In this document: positions 34,931 through 47,220 of the stretch, one piece after another
Layout: each line of letters opens with the position of its first letter
Position numbering within the stretch: the stretch's first letter is position 1
Assembly: GCF_003609605.1 (NCBI RefSeq)
Contig: NZ_MCHY01000002.1
Span: forward strand, 62,001-126,000
From: Ammoniphilus oxalaticus
GTDB lineage: Bacteria; Bacillota; Bacilli; Aneurinibacillales; RAOX-1
Reading direction: 5' to 3'
DNA: 64,000 nt
The notes under the pieces: model-generated
Database searches by the model: none
What the model was told of the DNA's origin: nothing
What the model saw: the letters and a program-made list of their open reading frames with translations, nothing else
Translations under genes and position numbers: made by a program

Positions 34931-35833
34931 TTATTCGATTAGCCCAGCTTCCGTTAAGAAGCGCTTAGCTACAGCGTCAACTCGTTCACCATCGTTATCT
35001 ACTTGTCCATTCATTTTCTGCATCGTCTCTTCATTAATTTTTCCAGCTAATTGAAGAAGAACTTCTTCCAACTCAGGATGGGCTTCTAACGTATCTTGTC
35101 GAACAAGCGGTAGCGCGTGATAAGGCGGGAAGAACGATTTATCATCTTCCAGCACTCTTAAATCATATTCGGTTAATTGACCGTCTGTCGTGTAAGAGTT
35201 AATCACGTCAACCTCTCCAGAATCGATCGCGCGGTACATCATCCCGTGATCCATTCCTTTAACTTCTTTAAATTCGATGCCATATTCCTTGCTAAACCCT
35301 GGTAATCCATCAGGTCGATCAATAAACTCGAATACAGCTCCAAACGTGAAATCTTTGGCATGTTCAGCGAAGTCACTAAACGTCACGACGCCAAGTTCCT
35401 CTGCCTTATCTTCATATAGAGCCAAAGTATAAGTGTTATTAAACCCAAACGGTTCTAATGCTGTGAGTCCGTCTTCAGCTACAAACTCTTTTACCATCGC
35501 TAATGTTTCATCCGCATTTCCTGGCTCTGCTTGATAATAGTTAGCCACAATCGTGCCCGTGTAATCAGGGATCACTTGAATGTTATCACTTGTGATCGCA
35601 TTCCAGACTACGTTGGAGCCACCCATATTCTCTCTATAAACAACGTTTAAATCTGTTTTTGCATCGATCATCTGTCCAATAATGTGTGAAAGAATAATAC
35701 TTTCTGTATTGTTTCGCGAACCTACAGCAATTGTATCTCCATCTTTGGCTCCTTGGCCGCCACCTCCGCAAGCAGTAAGCAGCATAACAGAAGCAAGTAA
35801 CGCAGTAATAAGTTTATAACTTTTCTTTATCAT
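34931..35833 (-). CDS. Osmoprotectant (glycine betaine/carnitine/choline) ABC transporter substrate-binding lipoprotein, OpuCC-like
   Basis: 300 residues. Signal peptide with lipobox LLTACGG, then an OpuAC-type periplasmic-binding domain: AVGSRNNTESIILSHIIGQM, NVVWNAITSDNIQVIPDYTG, VDVINSYTTDGQL. It binds quaternary-ammonium osmolytes at the membrane outer face. AGGGGGATATT precedes the ATG; the gene is 9 bp after the permease gene. It is the last gene of the operon. The exact ligand (betaine, carnitine, choline or other) cannot be fixed from sequence reading. Confidence 0.9.
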   Translation of the reverse strand: MIKKSYKLITALLASVMLLTACGGGGQGAKDGDTIAVGSRNNTESIILSHIIGQMIDAKTDLNVVYRENMGGSNVVWNAITSDNIQVIPDYTGTIVANYYQAEPGNADETLAMVKEFVAEDGLTALEPFGFNNTYTLALYEDKAEELGVVTFSDFAEHAKDFTFGAVFEFIDRPDGLPGFSKEYGIEFKEVKGMDHGMMYRAIDSGEVDVINSYTTDGQLTEYDLRVLEDDKSFFPPYHALPLVRQDTLEAHPELEEVLLQLAGKINEETMQKMNGQVDNDGERVDAVAKRFLTEAGLIE

Positions 35834-38210: not shown

Positions 38211-38978
38211 TTACTCACTGTAGCCTAATCTTTTTGAGATTTGCTTACCAATACTCATGACTTTGTTTTCCAGCTTGCTTAATCTTTCTTCTGTCATTCT
38301 CATTTTAGGCCCAGAAATACTAAATGCGGCAATCACATTACTTGTGTGGTCAAAAATAGGCACAGCAATACAGTTAATGCCAAGTTCGTTTTCTTCCAAG
38401 TCTAAAGCATACCCTTTTTCTTTTATCTTATCCAGTTGTTGATACAACGATTCTTTATCTGTAATCGTAAAGGGCGTGTGGGGTTCAAACGGATACTCGT
38501 CAAACGCTTTCTCCACCTCTTTACGGGGTAAATAAGCCAGAATTGCTTTTCCTACTGATGTACAATGCATCGGCGCCCTTGTACCAACTTTAGAATGCAT
38601 ACGAAGTGTCTCATTGCCTTCTAACTTTTCAATATAAACAACTTCACCACGGTCATAAACAACCAGATGAATGACTTCATTGGTCAACTGTTCTAATTCT
38701 TTTAAGAAAGGCTTTGCTTCCGCGCGCAGATCAATCGAATCGAGCAGGGATGAACTTAATTCTAAAACTTTATAACCTAATTTATAACGATCTGTCTCTG
38801 TCTCTTGTTCAACATAGCCGTATTGCACAAAAGTGGATAACATCCTGTAAACAGACGTTTTGTTAAATCCTAACTCTTTAGAAATTTCCGTAACCCCGCA
38901 ACCCACTTTTCGCTTTCTTAAAAAATCGAGTATTTGTAGGGCGCGACCAAGTGACTTCACCATGCTCTCATTAGACAT
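38211..38978 (-). CDS. IclR-family transcriptional regulator of the oxalate/glyoxylate block
   Basis: 255 residues from ATG 38978, 8 bases after AGGAGGTG. The N-terminal winged helix is GRALQILDFLRKRK...TEISKELGFNKTSVYRMLST. The C-terminal effector domain holds APMHCTSVGKAILAYLP and LDLEENELGINCIAVPIFD. IclR regulators of glyoxylate and allantoin pathways (such as AllR) bind glyoxylate or related acids. It lies downstream of the reductase gene, on the same strand but after a terminator. Palindromic GTTTC/GAAAC arrays before gcl and the ligase gene are its likely operators. Confidence 0.92.
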   Translation of the reverse strand: MSNESMVKSLGRALQILDFLRKRKVGCGVTEISKELGFNKTSVYRMLSTFVQYGYVEQETETDRYKLGYKVLELSSSLLDSIDLRAEAKPFLKELEQLTNEVIHLVVYDRGEVVYIEKLEGNETLRMHSKVGTRAPMHCTSVGKAILAYLPRKEVEKAFDEYPFEPHTPFTITDKESLYQQLDKIKEKGYALDLEENELGINCIAVPIFDHTSNVIAAFSISGPKMRMTEERLSKLENKVMSIGKQISKRLGYSE

Positions 38979-39030
38979 ACGATACACCTCCTATTTTTAA
39001 TTTGCTCGTAACAAAAACAACATGTAAAAA

Positions 39031-39078: not shown

Positions 39079-39954
39079 CTATTTGTCATAAAGCTTGTAC
39101 AATGCTTGTGTACCAAGATCTTCATGACCCATTTCAGCCAGCTTATCGTTGTTAGCTTTCATTAATTCAAGTCCAGGTAATTCTGCGCCCATTTCTTTAG
39201 CCGCTTCCAATCCGATTACCATATCTTTAATAAAGTGCTTGATATAGAATCCTGGATCAAAGTCGCCAGATGTCATTTTAGGAGCAAGATTGCTTAGCTG
39301 CCAGCTTCCCGCAGCGCCTGTTTCGATGCTTTCAAGCACACGAATCGGGTCTAATCCAGCTTTTTTAGCGTAGATCATTGATTCTACAGCTCCCATTAAA
39401 GTTGAAGCAAGCGCAATTTGGTTACACTGCTTTGTATGCTGTCCTGCTCCCGCAGCGCCTTGTAACACAATATTTTGACCCATTAATTCAAAGATTGGCT
39501 TTACAGCGTCAAATGCTGCTTGGTCGCCGCCAACCATAATCGATAAACGAGCTTCTCTCGCTCCGATGTCGCCACCAGAAACAGGAGCGTCTAACGAATG
39601 CATCCCACGGCTTTTCGCTTCGTCATAAATACGAGCGGCAAGCGAAGGGCTGGAAGTAGTCATATCAATAAAGTATGTGCCTTCTTTAGCATTCGGAATT
39701 AAACCTTCCGCGCCAAGGTATACTTCTTCAACGTCTTTTGGATAACCAACAATCGTAATAATTACATTTGCTTGTTTAGCAACATCAGCAACTGTGTCAG
39801 CCCACTTTGCGCCTTTTTCAAGCAGCGCATTTGCTTTTTCTTTGGTGCGGTTGTAAACAACTAAGGAGTAGCCGCCATCAATCAGATGACCCGCCATGCT
39901 TTGTCCCATAACGCCAAGTCCAATAAAACCAATTGTAGTTGTGCTTTTGTCCAT
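39079..39954 (-). CDS. garR: 2-hydroxy-3-oxopropionate (tartronate semialdehyde) reductase
   Basis: 291 residues of the beta-hydroxyacid dehydrogenase family. NAD(P) motif GFIGLGVMGQSMAGHLIDGG, substrate motif LDAPVSGGDIGAREA and the catalytic Lys in HTKQCNQIALAS. It reduces tartronate semialdehyde, the product of glyoxylate carboligase, to D-glycerate. It follows gcl by 84 bp on the same strand and precedes a terminator. The related 3-hydroxyisobutyrate dehydrogenases share these motifs; the gcl context decides the call. Confidence 0.92.
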   Translation of the reverse strand: MDKSTTTIGFIGLGVMGQSMAGHLIDGGYSLVVYNRTKEKANALLEKGAKWADTVADVAKQANVIITIVGYPKDVEEVYLGAEGLIPNAKEGTYFIDMTTSSPSLAARIYDEAKSRGMHSLDAPVSGGDIGAREARLSIMVGGDQAAFDAVKPIFELMGQNIVLQGAAGAGQHTKQCNQIALASTLMGAVESMIYAKKAGLDPIRVLESIETGAAGSWQLSNLAPKMTSGDFDPGFYIKHFIKDMVIGLEAAKEMGAELPGLELMKANNDKLAEMGHEDLGTQALYKLYDK

Positions 39955-40038: not shown

Positions 40039-41775
40039 TTATAGACTGTCAGAGTAGTTGAAGCCTTTAAGCGTACCGTTGTTTGAGAATTGGCAAACTG
40101 TATCGCTCGCTACGATCACTTCAATTACGTAAGGCTTGTTAAGGTCTTTCGCGCGTTGTAATGCAGGCTTAATATCTTCCCATTTCGTTACACGCTCACC
40201 ACGAACACCCATACCTGCCGCAGTCTTTACGAAGTCAATACCAAGGTTTCCGTTATCAGAAAGCTCGTTTTCGTACTCTAAACCAGTATCGATTCTGCGT
40301 TCGCCGTAGAACCAGTTTTGTTGTTGACGAATCAATCCAAGCAATCCGTTATGCATAACGAATACAACAACTGGAATGTCGTATTTAGCAGCTGTAGCTA
40401 AGTCTTGTAATGACATACCTAAGCTACCGTCACCAAGAATATTAACAGCTTGACGCTCAGGGAACGCAAGTTTAGCAGCCATTGCAGCTCCTAGACCCCA
40501 TCCCATTGTACCGCCTCCACCAGTTAATAGGTATGTGCGCGGCACATATGTTTCGAATAATTGACATGACCAGATTTGGCTGATTCCGCAGTCATGTGAA
40601 ACGAAAGCGTCGCGATCTAAGAATTCTCTTAGTTCTCTTAATGCGCGTTCTTGTCTGATCGGGTTATCATCGTAGTCAGTCTTACGAGCATATTTTGCTC
40701 TTTCTTCCGTTAAGTCAAGCTTCGCTGGAGCCTCAGCTGTAGCAGCCACATCAGCAGTAAGCTTTTTGTATGTTTCAGCTAACTTACTCATGAATGTTTT
40801 AACGTCGGATACAACGCCTAGCTCCGTTTCAACTGTCTTACCGATATCTTTTTCATCGATATTAACCATGATAATTTTTGCGTCACGTTTGAAAATCTCA
40901 ACGTTTCCTGTGCTACGGTCAGCAAAACGTCCACCAAGGTTAATGATCAAGTCAGATTCTAAAATTGTTTTGTTACCGAATGGAGTATCTAACATCGTAC
41001 CCATACGACCAGCAAATAGCGGGTGATCGTTAGGGAATGTATCCATACCCATACCTGTTGTAACCACAGGAATTTGCAACGCTTCAGCTAGTTCTTTTAA
41101 TTCAGCTGTAGAGTTAGAAAGGTTGATACCGCCACCCGCAACAAGAACAGGCTTTTTAGCTTCTTTCAAGAACTCAAGAACTTTCTCGATATCTTCATCT
41201 GAAGCTTGCGGCAATACATCTGGTTCGCTAGAAGCGATTAATGCGTCAAGATCCACTTCAACCTCAACTTTTTGCGCGTCTACTGGAAGGTCAAGCAACA
41301 CAGGACCTTTGCGTCCTTTTGTAGCTGTTTCCCATGCTTCATGGATCATTTCAACTGCTTTAGATCCATCTGTTAATTGATACACAGCCTTACAAACAGG
41401 CTTAGCCATTTCAGTGATTGGCGCTTCTTGGAACTGCATTGTTCCTAAAAGAGTTGCTTTTTGTTGTCCAACGATCGCGATCAATGGGATAGAATCCATG
41501 AAAGCTCCGTATAACCCTGTTAGGAAGTTCGTTCCGCCAGGACCTGATGTCGCTGAACAAACACCAACTTTTCCAGTGGCGCGGGAATATCCGTCAGCCA
41601 TGAACACAGCTGTTTGCTCGTGGCGAACCACATAAGAATCGATTTTAGTATCTTCTAGAATTGAATCGTAGAATGGTAGAATAGCTGCTCCAGGCACACC
41701 ATAAAGTTGTGTTACTCCGCGCTTTTCAAGATAAAGCGCAATTGCTTGAGCTGCTGTCATTTTAACTTTAGCCAT
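40039..41775 (-). CDS. gcl: Glyoxylate carboligase (thiamine diphosphate enzyme)
   Basis: 578 residues of the acetolactate synthase-like family. Diphosphate-binding segment GDGSLGMSLQDLATAAKYDI...HNG near residue 450, and LLGLIRQQQNWFYGERRID as in Gcl. It should join two glyoxylates into tartronate semialdehyde and CO2, as the adjacent reductase gene implies. Unlike E. coli Gcl, which has Val51, this protein keeps Glu (E53 in VVRHEQTAVF) at the cofactor-activating position. TGAGGAGGA precedes the ATG. An acetolactate synthase is a less likely alternative because no small subunit gene is near. Confidence 0.85.
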   Translation of the reverse strand: MAKVKMTAAQAIALYLEKRGVTQLYGVPGAAILPFYDSILEDTKIDSYVVRHEQTAVFMADGYSRATGKVGVCSATSGPGGTNFLTGLYGAFMDSIPLIAIVGQQKATLLGTMQFQEAPITEMAKPVCKAVYQLTDGSKAVEMIHEAWETATKGRKGPVLLDLPVDAQKVEVEVDLDALIASSEPDVLPQASDEDIEKVLEFLKEAKKPVLVAGGGINLSNSTAELKELAEALQIPVVTTGMGMDTFPNDHPLFAGRMGTMLDTPFGNKTILESDLIINLGGRFADRSTGNVEIFKRDAKIIMVNIDEKDIGKTVETELGVVSDVKTFMSKLAETYKKLTADVAATAEAPAKLDLTEERAKYARKTDYDDNPIRQERALRELREFLDRDAFVSHDCGISQIWSCQLFETYVPRTYLLTGGGGTMGWGLGAAMAAKLAFPERQAVNILGDGSLGMSLQDLATAAKYDIPVVVFVMHNGLLGLIRQQQNWFYGERRIDTGLEYENELSDNGNLGIDFVKTAAGMGVRGERVTKWEDIKPALQRAKDLNKPYVIEVIVASDTVCQFSNNGTLKGFNYSDSL

Positions 41776-41985: not shown

Positions 41986-42012
41986 GTTTCTCATTGAGAA
42001 ACAGCGTTTCTC
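41986..42012. promoter_or_regulatory. Three-half-site palindrome array upstream of gcl (putative IclR operator)
   Basis: GTTTC at 41986, GAAAC at 41998 and GTTTC at 42006 build two overlapping perfect palindromes: GTTTCTC-ATT-GAGAAAC and GAGAAAC-AGC-GTTTCTC. The same spacing (0, 12, 20) recurs at 45409-45434. It is about 110 bases downstream of the likely start of transcription. Confidence 0.65.
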
Positions 42013-42124: not shown

Positions 42125-42153
42125 ATACTAACAGTCAACCACAAAAAAATCAA
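42125..42153 (-). promoter_or_regulatory. Probable vegetative promoter of gcl
   Basis: On the minus strand TTGATT (-35; 42148-42153), 17 bp, TAGTAT (-10; 42125-42130). The same boxes, the same spacing and closely similar flanks lie upstream of the ligase gene at 45448-45476. The leader to gcl would be about 340 nt. Confidence 0.6.
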
Positions 42154-42395: not shown

Positions 42396-42635
42396 TTACG
42401 CCTTGGCAGCGCTAATCAAGTCAACAACTTGACCAACCGTCTCAAGACCAGCAGCATCCGAATCAGAAATTTTCAAATCAAAAGCATTTTCAATTTCTGT
42501 CACAATGCTGACGATATCAACGGAATCGACCCCAAGATCGTCACTGATTGTAGATTCAACTTTGATGCTGTCTCCCTCAATAGCTAAGAAATCAGCAAAC
42601 AACTCTCTCACTTGGTTAAAGATGCTATCAGACAT
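42396..42635 (-). CDS. Acyl carrier protein dedicated to the oxalate block
   Basis: 79 residues from ATG 42635, preceded by GTGGAGGAAG. The phosphopantetheine site is DLGVDSVDIVSIVTEIEN, with the Ser of DSVD as attachment point. The third helix contains SDSDAAGLETVGQVVDLI. It is not next to any fatty-acid gene; it sits 110 bp after the reductase and downstream of the ligase in the same orientation. The location suggests that an acyl group made by the ligase, perhaps oxalyl, is carried on this protein. That is inference. Confidence 0.9.
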   Translation of the reverse strand: MSDSIFNQVRELFADFLAIEGDSIKVESTISDDLGVDSVDIVSIVTEIENAFDLKISDSDAAGLETVGQVVDLISAAKA

Positions 42636-42744
42636 GTCACTTCCTCCACTCATTCTTAAAGTTTTGTAATTCATTCATTTCATTAATATACATAAAACAT
42701 AATGGGTTGGAAACCATTATATGTCTTACATTTTAAAAATAGAA

Positions 42745-43734
42745 CTATCTTACATGAATTAAATCTTTGTCAATCGTTAGTAATTTAACACATGCATAGA
42801 TCGCGTCTAGGTTTGGAGTTGGGGTATCCGTAATTTTCCCTAGTTCGCAAACAGCTCCAACAAGAGCATCAATCTCTAACGTGCGTCCAGCTTCCAAGTC
42901 TTGCAACATAGAAGTTCTGTGCGCTCCAACCGCTTCTGCGCCTTGAATTCTCTGATCAACAGATACTCCGAAACGGATACCTAGTTTTTCAGCGATCGTT
43001 TGAGCCTCAACCATCATGTTTCGAGCCAATTCTCTAGTAGGAGCATACTGACAAATCTCCTCCAAAGTACCATGTGTTAATGCGCTAATCGGGTTGAATG
43101 CGCAGTTGCCCCATAACTTAACCCAAATTTCATCGCGGATCGTCGTGCGCACAGGCGCTCTCAAACCAGCAGCATTAATTCTTCTTGAAATTTCACGAAC
43201 ACGTTCGCTCCTCGAACCATCTAATTCCCCTAGGGAGAAACGGTCGCCATCAATGTGTTGAACAATTCCAGGACCAGCTAATTCTGTCGCTGGGTAAACA
43301 ACGCAGCCGATCACACGATCTGTTTCTAGATTAGCTTCAATAATACCGCCTGGATCAACAGACTCAATACGACTTCCTTCGTATGGTCCGCCATGTTTGT
43401 GGAAATACCACCAAGGCACTCCATTTTGCGCAGTAATTACGACCGTATCCGGGCCATAAAGTGGACGCATGTTTGGAGCTAGTCCAGGTAAACTGTGAGC
43501 CTTTAACGCTACGATAACAACGTCCTGCTCTCCAGCTTCTTCCATTCTGCTCGTCGCTAATTTAGGATGAGCTACTTGTTCTGTTCCATCTGACATACGC
43601 AAAGTTAAACCGTTTTGTTGAATGGCTTCTAAGTGAGCGCCACGAGCAATTAATGTTACCTCTTCACCAGCTAATGCAAGCTTAGCGCCAAGATAGCCAC
43701 CAATAGCTCCTGCTCCTACGATACAAAAACGCAA
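42745..43734 (-). CDS. PanE-like reductase, likely oxalyl-CoA reductase (PanE2 type)
   Basis: 329 residues of the ketopantoate reductase family. NADP motif CIVGAGAIGGYLGAKLALAG, central KLWGNCAFNPISALTHGT with the catalytic Lys and Asn, and the C-terminal domain GRTLEIDALVGAVCELG. It starts with TTG after AGGGAGGAAG, 15 bp downstream of the ligase. In Methylobacterium extorquens a PanE homologue (PanE2) was reported to reduce oxalyl-CoA to glyoxylate. The placement between an oxalate-type ligase and gcl supports the same role here. No pantothenate genes are near. Confidence 0.85.
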   Translation of the reverse strand: MRFCIVGAGAIGGYLGAKLALAGEEVTLIARGAHLEAIQQNGLTLRMSDGTEQVAHPKLATSRMEEAGEQDVVIVALKAHSLPGLAPNMRPLYGPDTVVITAQNGVPWWYFHKHGGPYEGSRIESVDPGGIIEANLETDRVIGCVVYPATELAGPGIVQHIDGDRFSLGELDGSRSERVREISRRINAAGLRAPVRTTIRDEIWVKLWGNCAFNPISALTHGTLEEICQYAPTRELARNMMVEAQTIAEKLGIRFGVSVDQRIQGAEAVGAHRTSMLQDLEAGRTLEIDALVGAVCELGKITDTPTPNLDAIYACVKLLTIDKDLIHVR

Positions 43735-43749
43735 TGATCTCTTCCTCCC

Positions 43750-45267
43750 TTATGAAATTCCTAGCAGTTCTGCCAAGTTAACTCTCTGTATTTTACTTGT
43801 TGCCCCACGCGGGATTTCGTCCACGATATGGAATCTTCTAGGCACTTTAAAGTCAGCCAATTGCGCTGAACAGTGCGCCCGCAATTCTTTCTCGTCCGCA
43901 TCTCCTTTTAAGACAACTGCCGCATGAATATCTTCCCCGTAAACTTTACTAGGAACAGCAAACGCAATCGCTTCCGAAACTGCGGGATGACGTAAAAGAA
44001 CATCGTCAACTTCAATCGGTGATATTTTTTCACCGCCACGGTTGATAATTTCTTTGAATCGTCCTGTTAGAGATAAATATCCGTCTTCATCTTTGAAACC
44101 TTGGTCCCCTGTGCGGAACCATCCATTTGCAAACGCCTCTGCGTTTGCTTCCGGATTCTCTTCGTATCCTGAGAAAATATTTGGTCCTTTTACAACAACT
44201 TCACCCAATTCCCCGTTTTCCAACAGGTTTCCTTCTTCGTCCATAATGCCAACTTCTACACCAAACCCGATCCCAACACTGCCTGGCTTTCGTTGCGCCG
44301 GAGGTAATGGGTTGGAAGCCATTTGGTGACAAGCTTCTGACATTCCGTAAGCCTCTAGAACCGGAGCCTTAAACACTTCTTCCATGCGCTCTAGTATAAC
44401 AGGCGGTAACGGTGAACTACTGGAACGAATAAAACGGAACGGGTTTGCTTCGATAATGTCCTTGTTGCTTTCAGCTCTAGCAAGTAACGTCTGATGCATT
44501 GTTGGAACAGCTGAGTACCACGTCGGCTTATAAGTATCGACCCAACTCCAAAATTCAAGGGCGCTAAACCCTGGTGGGCAAACCAATTTACCCCCCGCCG
44601 CTAAAGTGGATAGCGTTGAGGCAATAATGCCATGAATATGGAATAAAGGCATGACACATAACCCTGTGTCATCTTTTGTTAAATTATATGTTGATTTAAT
44701 ATTGTTTGCCGACGCCACAATGTTTGAATGACGAAGTGGCACTCGCTTTGGCGCGCCGGTTGTCCCGCTCGTGTGCAAAATCATTGCCACATCTTCAGGC
44801 GCTGCCAATTCCGTAGGACGAGGTTCGCGTTGCCCTTTAATTAATTCAAAAGATAGAGTCCCATCTTCCTGTGGTGTTGCTTCAATGAGAGCCATATCTT
44901 CCGTCATGGCTTCGCGCGCTAATTCCGCGGAACCCGGAAGCGTGATAAGCGCTCGCGCTTTTGTATCCTCATAATAGTACGCAAACTCTTCTTTTTTATA
45001 ATTTGGATTTAGCGGAGCTGCTGTAGCGGAAATGGCAACCGCCAAAAAAGTAACTACAGTTTCTGGGCCATTCCCCATTACCATCGCTACACGATCTCCG
45101 CGACCAATTCCGAAGCTATTTAATGCTGCCGATAACTGAATGACATTATCATATAATTGTTTATAAGATAATGTCGGTTTACCCGGAGCGAAAAGAGCCT
45201 CGTCATGATCGCTTCCTGTTGGACTAAGAAGATCATGTATTGTCATGTTTAAGGGAGTCTTTATCAT
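43750..45267 (-). CDS. AMP-forming acyl-CoA ligase, probably oxalate-CoA ligase, copy 1
   Basis: 505 residues from ATG 45267 (GAAGGTAT upstream). ANL superfamily motifs: ILHTSGTTGAPKRVPLRHSN (P-loop), EAYGMSEACHQMASNPLPP, WFRTGDQGFKDEDGYLSLTG, RFKEIINRGGEKISP and the C-terminal Lys in GATSKIQRV. The stretch with SEACHQMASNP and RKPGSVG is typical of Pcs60/AAE3 oxalyl-CoA synthetases. It should activate oxalate with ATP. The first gene of ligase-reductase-ACP. At the C-terminal G-K motif this copy has SK where copy 2 has GK. Confidence 0.88.
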   Translation of the reverse strand: MIKTPLNMTIHDLLSPTGSDHDEALFAPGKPTLSYKQLYDNVIQLSAALNSFGIGRGDRVAMVMGNGPETVVTFLAVAISATAAPLNPNYKKEEFAYYYEDTKARALITLPGSAELAREAMTEDMALIEATPQEDGTLSFELIKGQREPRPTELAAPEDVAMILHTSGTTGAPKRVPLRHSNIVASANNIKSTYNLTKDDTGLCVMPLFHIHGIIASTLSTLAAGGKLVCPPGFSALEFWSWVDTYKPTWYSAVPTMHQTLLARAESNKDIIEANPFRFIRSSSSPLPPVILERMEEVFKAPVLEAYGMSEACHQMASNPLPPAQRKPGSVGIGFGVEVGIMDEEGNLLENGELGEVVVKGPNIFSGYEENPEANAEAFANGWFRTGDQGFKDEDGYLSLTGRFKEIINRGGEKISPIEVDDVLLRHPAVSEAIAFAVPSKVYGEDIHAAVVLKGDADEKELRAHCSAQLADFKVPRRFHIVDEIPRGATSKIQRVNLAELLGIS

Positions 45268-45408: not shown

Positions 45409-45434
45409 GTTTCTCATTGCGAAACGCTATTTCG
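45409..45434. promoter_or_regulatory. Three-half-site operator overlapping the ligase transcription start
   Basis: GTTTC at 45409, GAAAC at 45421 and ATTTC at 45429: the same 0, 12, 20 spacing as before gcl. It lies 14 bases downstream of the -10 box, a repressor position. The likely binder is the IclR regulator at 38211-38978. Confidence 0.65.
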
Positions 45435-45447
45435 TATTTGTAAGTTA

Positions 45448-45476
45448 ATACTACCAGCCCAGTTTTAAAAAATCAA
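45448..45476 (-). promoter_or_regulatory. Probable promoter of the ligase-reductase-ACP operon
   Basis: Minus-strand TTGATT (45471-45476), 17 bp spacer, TAGTAT (45448-45453). The surrounding ~50 bases are clearly similar to the gcl promoter region, pointing to a duplicated regulatory block. Confidence 0.6.
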
Positions 45477-45705: not shown

Positions 45706-47220
45706 CTATTCTAGACCAAGTAACTTAGCCATATTAATTCTTTGAATCTTACCCGTCGCTCCGCGAGGGATCTCGTCCAAGAAAAGAATTTTTCTCGGCA
45801 CTTTAAAGTCGGCCAATTGTTTAGCGCAGTGCGCCCGCAATTCTTTTTCTGTCGTTTCTACTTTCAATACAACAGCGGCTTGAATATCCTCTCCATACAC
45901 TTTGCTCGGTACAGCAAATGTGATTGCCGCTGATACCGCTGGATGACGCAATAGGATATCGTCCACTTCCGCAGGAGAAATTTTCTCTCCGCCACGGTTG
46001 ATAATTTCTTTAAATCGTCCAGTTAACGTTAAGTACCCATCTTCGTCTTTAAACCCTTGATCTCCCGTGCGGAACCAACCATTTGTGAAAGCTTCAGCAT
46101 TTGCCTCAGGATTAGATTCGTAGCCTTTAAATACGTTCGGCCCCTTAATAACAACCTCTCCTAGCTCCCCTTGCGGCAACAAGTTTCCTTCCTCGTCCAT
46201 AATTCCAATCTCAACGCCAACTCCAATTCCTACGCTACCCGCTTTTCGTTTTGCTGGTGGAATTGGATTAGAAGCCATTTGGTGGGCCGCCTCTGACATC
46301 CCGTAAGCTTCAAGCACAGGCGCTTTAAATGTTTCCTCCATCCGCTCTAGAATAACTGGCGGTAACGGAGAACTACTGGAGCGAATAAAACGGAATGGAT
46401 TTGCTTCGATAATTTCCTTATTGCTTTCCGCTCTAGCAAGTAATGTTTGATGCATCGTTGGAACGGCGGAGTACCAAGTCGGTTTAAATGTATCGACCCA
46501 GCCCCAAAATTCAAGCGCGCTAAATCCTGGCGGGCAGACCAACTGACCTCCTGAACCAAGCGTGGACAAAACGGATGCGACAATCCCGTGAATATGAAAC
46601 AACGGCATGATACATAACGCCGTATCGTCTTTTGATAGATTGTAAGTTGATTTAATATTCATTGCGGTTGCGACTAAATTTGAATGCAAAATTGGCACGC
46701 GTTTTGGCGCCCCTGTCGTTCCGCTTGTATGCAAGATCATCGCCACATCTTCTGGAGAAGCAAGTTCTGTTTCCTTTGGTTCAAAAGAAGCGCCCTTGAC
46801 TTGTTCAAATGCGAGCGTTCCATCTTCTTGCGGTCTTGCTTCTATAATAGCCATATCTTCCGTAGCCGCTTCAAGCGCGAGCGCCGCGGAATCAGGCAGC
46901 GTGATCAAAGCTTTAGCTTTTGTATCTCCATAGTAGAATGCGAATTCATCTTTTGTGTAGTTAGGATTAAGCGGGGCCGCCGTCGAACAAAAAGCAACAG
47001 CTAAGAAGGTAATTACAGTTTCGGGCCCATTCCCCATTACAATCGCTACGCGATCTCCCCGACCAATACCGAATCGATTTAAGGTGGACGCTAATGATAT
47101 AACATTGTCATACAGTTGTTTATAAGTAAGTGATTGTTAACCAGGAGCTAAAATAGCGTTACCTTGCTCATTTCCTTTGATCAGATCTTCCAGAGTCATT
47201 TCTGTTGGACTCTTAATCAT
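45706..47220 (-). pseudogene. Oxalate-CoA ligase copy 2, interrupted by a nonsense codon
   Basis: A paralogue of copy 1 along its whole length (505 codons against 506). The true start is ATG 47220 with AAGGAGAAGG upstream, but codon 28 is TAA (47137-47139) where copy 1 has AAA (APGKPTLSYK versus APG-stop-QSLTYK). The frame continues afterwards as QSLTYKQLYDNVISLASTLN without a shift. All catalytic motifs remain, including GATGKIQRI. Either it is a recent pseudogene, or a shortened protein begins at an internal start such as 47037, which would lack much of the N-terminal domain and has no clear ribosome binding site. Confidence 0.75.

Follow-up and report, generated by a model that had tools for sequence, protein, structure and literature searches.

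Gene order and features of the locus

The sequence analysed here, referred to as the window, is a stretch of 64,000 nucleotides from Ammoniphilus oxalaticus (contig C2, bases 62001-126000), the genome of which amounts to 3.32 Mb in 13 contigs. Its minus strand carries, in the direction of transcription, LigB (interrupted), LigA, PanE, ACP1, a GCL-like gene, a TSR-like gene, and a gene for an IclR-family regulator (Table 1). LigA and PanE are separated by 15 bp, PanE and ACP1 by 109 bp, and ACP1 and the GCL-like gene by 620 bp.

Table 1. Genes and regulatory features of the oxalate locus (window positions).
Feature	Position	Strand	Details
IclR-family regulator	38211..38987	-	258 aa; PF01614/PF09339; role inferred
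TSR-like dehydrogenase	39079..39954	-	291 aa; TIGR01505, below cut-off
GCL-like ThDP enzyme	40039..41775	-	578 aa; TIGR01504, below cut-off; Glu where Gcl has Val
Operator-like site GTTTCTCAATGAGAAAC before GCL	41986..42002	-	the other zero-mismatch site in the genome
GCL promoter TTGATT-17-TAGTAT	42125..42153	-	read from sequence; layout as before LigA
ACP1, divergent stand-alone acyl carrier protein	42396..42635	-	79 aa; PF00550; DSVD phosphopantetheine site
PanE2-type reductase, predicted oxalyl-CoA reductase	42745..43734	-	329 aa; TTG start, GGAGG site; NF005089
LigA, AAE3/Pcs60-type oxalate--CoA ligase	43750..45267	-	505 aa; ATG 45267; PF00501 + PF13193
Operator-like site GTTTCGCAATGAGAAAC before LigA	45409..45425	-	matches without mismatch; the 3.3 Mb genome has one other such site
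LigA promoter TTGATT-17-TAGTAT	45448..45476	-	read from sequence
LigB, second ligase copy	45706..47220	-	80% identical to LigA; in-frame TAA at codon 28 (47137-47139)

The coordinates, strand and families of the ligase, reductase and ACP genes are all as originally predicted. That prediction had also placed the three in one operon, which holds for the closely spaced ligase and reductase; for ACP1, at its greater distance behind panE, co-transcription is a possibility. The statement that no fatty-acid genes lie nearby was borne out as well, since seven host fab or related proteins (PlsX, FabH, FabD1, FabG, FabF, FabD2 and the housekeeping ACP) match only ACP1 within the window. Between window positions 35000 and 50000, no Rfam family matched at its gathering score.

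The ligases and the reductase

When LigA was compared with solved structures, the four top matches (433, 418, 390 and 286 bits) were all named oxalate-CoA ligase or oxalyl-CoA synthetase. These include 5ie0 (433 bits), the Arabidopsis oxalyl-CoA synthetase AAE3, as well as 6qjz and 8aff; the next family, fatty acyl-CoA synthetase, scores 205 bits. LigA thus has the features expected of an AAE3/Pcs60 member, a two-domain ANL enzyme that is by sequence nearest to proven oxalate-CoA ligases. A third ligase, LigC, is intact, 64% identical, and located on contig C8 (L144:8304-9860), where neither PanE, which is single-copy in the genome, nor an ACP is found around it. The best match to the host ligases in 40 other genomes has 38% identity. 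LigA, LigB and LigC form one group (96/94) in a tree of 35 ligases, and this group joins two cyanobacterial ligases (100/100).

At 173 alignment columns with at least 95% agreement among 32 full-length ligases, all of them taken from PanE2 loci, LigA deviates at 20, and most of these deviations are common to LigB or LigC. One that is not is S491, which replaces a glycine adjoining what is presumably the catalytic lysine and which is absent from LigB, LigC and the 32 comparison ligases.

PanE belongs to the PanE/ApbA fold family, PRK06522.1-4 subfamily, and scores 484.3 bits on NF005089 (cut-off 223). It keeps 84 of the 85 near-invariant columns of 86 homologues, and the host genome has just one further match, a stretch with 26% identity. 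Only the host itself had a match at E<=1e-40 among 41 genomes, and likewise at E<=1e-60 among 398 genomes of the class. The ligase-PanE2 module is new for this bacterial class among the genomes sampled.

A scan of named genomes found relatives of PanE in at least 580 stretches, of which the best 80 were kept. The nearest of these come from metagenome-assembled genomes of Cyanocohniella, Hydrococcus, Chloroflexales and Nostoc (64-69% identity), followed mostly by proteobacteria; no record title among the best 80 of at least 580 names a member of the Bacillota. In a tree of 87 rows the PanE of the window forms a long branch. The simplest reading is horizontal gain, which is the most likely origin of the ligase-reductase pair. 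The locus puts a ligase-PanE2 pair for oxalate assimilation into the Bacilli, where it looks imported and is related to pairs in Cyanobacteria and Chloroflexota. The same tree contains two PanE2 loci of Oxalobacter formigenes HC-1 (L047, L048), the PanE proteins of which are identical.

Survey of PanE2 loci

Is an acyl carrier protein a regular companion of PanE2? The gene neighbourhood was surveyed at 86 PanE2 loci of other organisms, namely the best 80 of the at least 580 relatives and six plasmid loci, fetched from among 62 plasmid records. Within this sample an AAE3 ligase (at least 45% identity) is present in 33 loci, frc in 22, oxc in 18, and frc and/or oxc in 23. Altogether 56 loci have a ligase, frc or oxc, and 30 have none of these, several of them on short contigs. 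In none of the 86 are a ligase and frc/oxc found together, a mutual exclusion that one would expect of alternative suppliers of one substrate, oxalyl-CoA. LigA-PanE is an already known two-gene pair. In Azospirillum, Skermanella and Phyllobacterium (L014, L015, L018) the PanE2 gene shares its locus with genes for NAD(P) transhydrogenase subunits, in keeping with a requirement for NADPH.

No ACP was detected in any of these 86 loci (best 80 of at least 580, plus six plasmid), whether ACP1, ACP2 and the housekeeping ACP were used as tblastn queries (E<=1e-3) or the loci were searched with a profile of 33 ACPs (E<=10), which did detect all three control loci. The idea that the carrier protein would be conserved in the operon of relatives is thus contradicted within this sample. 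Since LigA and PanE keep most of the conserved columns, these enzymes resemble their ACP-less kin.

A promoter and operator shared with the glycerate-pathway genes

The LigA and GCL-like genes are preceded by the same promoter in the same layout, and by an operator-like site (Table 1). The pattern GTTTCNCAATGAGAAAC is matched without a mismatch at just two sites of the genome, before LigA and before the GCL-like gene. Elsewhere it occurs in four further places, each with 2 mismatches; a control pattern gave 3 matches. The stretch common to both genes after the promoter can be written as a 25-base pattern, which in seven scanned stretches has zero mismatches only there. No operator-like site is present ahead of ACP1, ACP2 or frc/oxc. 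The shared promoter and operator-like site tie LigA-PanE to the glycerate pathway. The IclR regulator probably acts on both promoters through the common site, and such a role would fit the position of its gene, which closes the second gene set.

The GCL-like and TSR-like genes, originally predicted to lie next to the operon, are both downstream on the same strand, but both proteins miss the cut-offs of their families. On TIGR01504 the GCL-like enzyme reaches 408.8 bits (cut-off 711.2), and on the model for acetolactate synthase 499.7 bits (cut-off 538.35); it is the best of five TIGR01504 matches in the genome, none of which is above the cut-off, and its best solved relative is Gcl. The TSR-like protein scores 260.8 bits on TIGR01505 (cut-off 340.75), which is still its top model. 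At standard position 51 the GCL-like enzyme has Glu, whereas the three Gcl-type proteins compared, two annotated gcl products and one Polaromonas locus protein chosen by similarity, have Val. An excerpt of one paper describes valine as characteristic of the entire Gcl family (PMC3534367). The GCL-like enzyme thus lacks this hallmark and retains the canonical active-site glutamate that valine replaces in the family, a separate and testable point on the mechanism of glyoxylate carboligation. It is called GCL-like here, and its role is suggested by gene context.

A probable route from oxalate to glycerate

The families, the gene neighbourhood and the shared promoter and operator support well the predicted route from oxalate through glyoxylate to glycerate; its substrates, cofactor and direction of flux would be as follows. 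LigA would adenylate oxalate with ATP and then transfer it to coenzyme A, and the PanE2-type reductase would use NAD(P)H to reduce oxalyl-CoA to glyoxylate. From two glyoxylates the GCL-like ThDP enzyme would then form tartronate semialdehyde, which the TSR-like enzyme would reduce to glycerate. ACP1 would be a member of a lineage-specific group of two ACPs with a cargo other than oxalate. This explanation as a whole, a CoA-based oxalate assimilation module with an imported ligase-reductase pair and an ACP1 that carries something else, is in our judgement likely.

ACP1 and its paralogue ACP2

ACP1 probably begins at ATG 42635, which has a GGAGG site, within a longer ORF from 42674. It scores 53 bits on PF00550 (cut-off 20.8), has the phosphopantetheine serine of PP-binding proteins in the motif DSVD, and is a genuine carrier, probably phosphopantetheinylated. 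It fails the housekeeping equivalog TIGR00517 (67.0 against 70.45) and passes the ACP subfamily model NF002150 (75.6 against 66 bits), the latter counting against a specialised reading. The genome encodes just three PP-binding proteins, the fab-cluster ACP (contig C8), ACP2 (contig C9) and ACP1, and no further carrier domains of the NRPS/PKS type. ACP2 shares 79% identity with ACP1; its gene is solitary and has both a ribosome site of its own and a terminator-like hairpin. Its location far from the oxalate genes indicates that such ACPs can stand alone, and a role of ACP1 as a private carrier of the operon, as had been proposed, is not borne out. A second FabD, FabD2, which is 51% identical to the fab-cluster FabD, is encoded about 6 kb from ACP2 (the two genes lie at L004:953-1900 and L004:7934-8185); it is a possible partner.

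ACP1 and ACP2 were compared with 31 other ACPs, made up of the fab-cluster ACP of the host and matches given as loci in two ACP searches. One of these searches gave loci for 30 of 46 places, ACP1 being one, and gene context was checked for the host ACP and that of one other genome (G047). At positions that are invariant or nearly so in the 31, both proteins have the changes A37V, L40V, E44S, M47T/S, D51N, E52A, E56K, E60S/A, E63A and Y74L (numbering by alignment columns). Lost among these are the acidic helix-II/III residues, through E44S, D51N, E52A, E56K, E60S/A and E63A. From the DSxD motif to TVG the net charge is -7 and -5 in ACP1 and ACP2, against -12 in the housekeeping ACP. Acidic residues of helix II guide fatty-acid enzymes. 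Their loss suggests a specialised ACP that serves something special, and ACP1 is probably for something other than ordinary fatty-acid synthesis.

Of the residues shared by ACP1 and ACP2, 30 of 62 have different codons, and dS is saturated (26.7), a value usable merely as "old". Judged by their codons, the two genes parted long ago. At E<=1e-17, G047 is the only one of 397 other genomes of the class with a similar ACP, and none is found in 397 other genomes of a phylum draw that overlaps the class draw. The G047 match, the sole further one in Bacilli, was rejected as an ordinary fab-cluster ACP. Plasmid relatives comprise 23 records, all below 60% identity, and the 20 listed (34.7-42.3%) are uninformative. 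A single-sequence AlphaFold model of ACP1 has a mean pLDDT of 59.6, too poor for use or for a structure search.

An AT-rich stem-loop region lies between panE and ACP1. It was considered as a terminator or riboswitch and rejected, as its folding energy is the same as that of shuffled sequences and no terminator-like site is listed there. Promoter-like sites are present just upstream of ACP1 (42773-42744 and 42713-42685); the ACP1 region has 18 such sites against a mean of 13.5 (sd 3.4) in shuffles, not clearly more. ACP1 may be co-transcribed with panE and have no role in the chemistry.

Oxalyl-CoA or oxalyl-ACP

The original prediction went further and proposed that oxalate may be carried on ACP1, for which the adjacency of the gene is the sole support. 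LigA would load holo-ACP1 with oxalate and the reductase would act on oxalyl-ACP1. The gene order LigA-PanE-ACP1 on one strand agrees with this, as do the residues in which ACP1 is unlike an ordinary fatty-acid ACP, the lack of fab genes in the window and of further NRPS/PKS-type carriers in the genome, and S491, specific to LigA. However, an ACP is absent from all 86 other PanE2 loci sampled (best 80 of at least 580, plus six plasmid), PanE deviates from its family at a single near-invariant column, ACP2 is distant from any oxalate genes, and ACP1 follows a 109 bp gap with no operator of its own. In addition, contig C11 (L145) carries frc, oxc, an OxlT-like transporter, formate dehydrogenase and FdhD-like genes together; oxc scores 881 bits on TIGR03254, above the cut-off, and the other names come from reading the proteins. 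With frc and oxc in the same genome, oxalyl-CoA is expected in the cell regardless of LigA. We consider an oxalyl-ACP pathway very unlikely.

Carriage of oxalate by ACP1, if real, would make this a novel form of oxalate metabolism. In its fullest form, ACP1 and ACP2 would represent a new class of stand-alone ACP in which the recognition helix is neutralised, and ACP1 would have been recruited behind the imported pair to channel oxalyl-ACP. Assimilation to glyoxylate would then be kept apart from the oxalyl-CoA that oxc consumes for energy, which would explain why one cell keeps frc/oxc as well as a ligase/PanE route. This too is highly improbable. The term "oxalyl-ACP" is absent from the literature searched, and papers that join oxalyl-CoA and acyl carrier protein describe no such pathway in their titles and the beginnings of their abstracts. 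For Ammoniphilus and Oxalophagus, no genome study is among the matches listed.

Could ACP1 be tied functionally to the oxalate operon and yet not carry oxalate? It might be an acyl-loaded sensor or a carrier of another short acyl group that growth on oxalate requires, with read-through that starts at the LigA promoter as the means of its expression. Its place downstream of panE with no recognisable terminator between them, the retention of two old paralogues and the neutralised recognition helix would suit such a role. Against it, no partner enzyme was found, the shared operator is absent upstream of both ACP1 and ACP2, and ACP1 has promoter-like sites directly ahead of it, though such sites are not clearly more frequent than in shuffles. 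A tie of this kind is unlikely, if less so than carriage of oxalate.

A CoA-based module with an unrelated ACP1 is the reading that we prefer, though chance adjacency is an uncomfortable explanation for a gene that is co-directional with the pair and directly downstream of it, in a genome with just three PP-binding proteins. The residue losses of ACP1 and ACP2 and the LigA-specific S491 are further counterpoints.

Comparison with known systems

Dedicated carrier proteins for small acids have a precedent in malonate decarboxylase and citrate lyase, which carry out ACP-dependent catabolism of short diacids. Their carriers bear a dephospho-CoA prosthetic group attached by dedicated transferases, and no such transferases were seen in the host genome stretches read.

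AAE3 and Pcs60 (FAT2) are the closest solved relatives of LigA across almost its full length. Unlike these, LigA is bacterial, is paired with a PanE2 reductase, and has three genomic copies, one of them interrupted. In engineered yeast, FAT2 together with panE2 of Methylobacterium extorquens gave glyoxylate via oxalyl-CoA, and the excerpts of these reports name no dedicated ACP (PMC12686821, PMC10127448).

The window PanE can be likened to M. extorquens PanE2, a PanE/ApbA-type reductase of the same kind that acts from oxalyl-CoA to glyoxylate, through a homologue in Methylobacterium bullatum, where a PanE 55% identical to that of the window lies beside a ligase that is 52% identical. The work on Methylobacterium PanE2 reportedly dealt with just this reduction of oxalyl-CoA. 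The window PanE differs in its Bacilli host, and only here does ACP1 follow panE.

As in the Gcl/Tsr glycerate pathway, gcl-like and tsr-like genes lie side by side, here with a promoter and operator in common with LigA; unlike in that pathway, the two proteins fall below the family cut-offs and the GCL-like one has Glu for Val at position 51. It is this promoter and operator that link the ligase-PanE2 pair to a glycerate-pathway operon.
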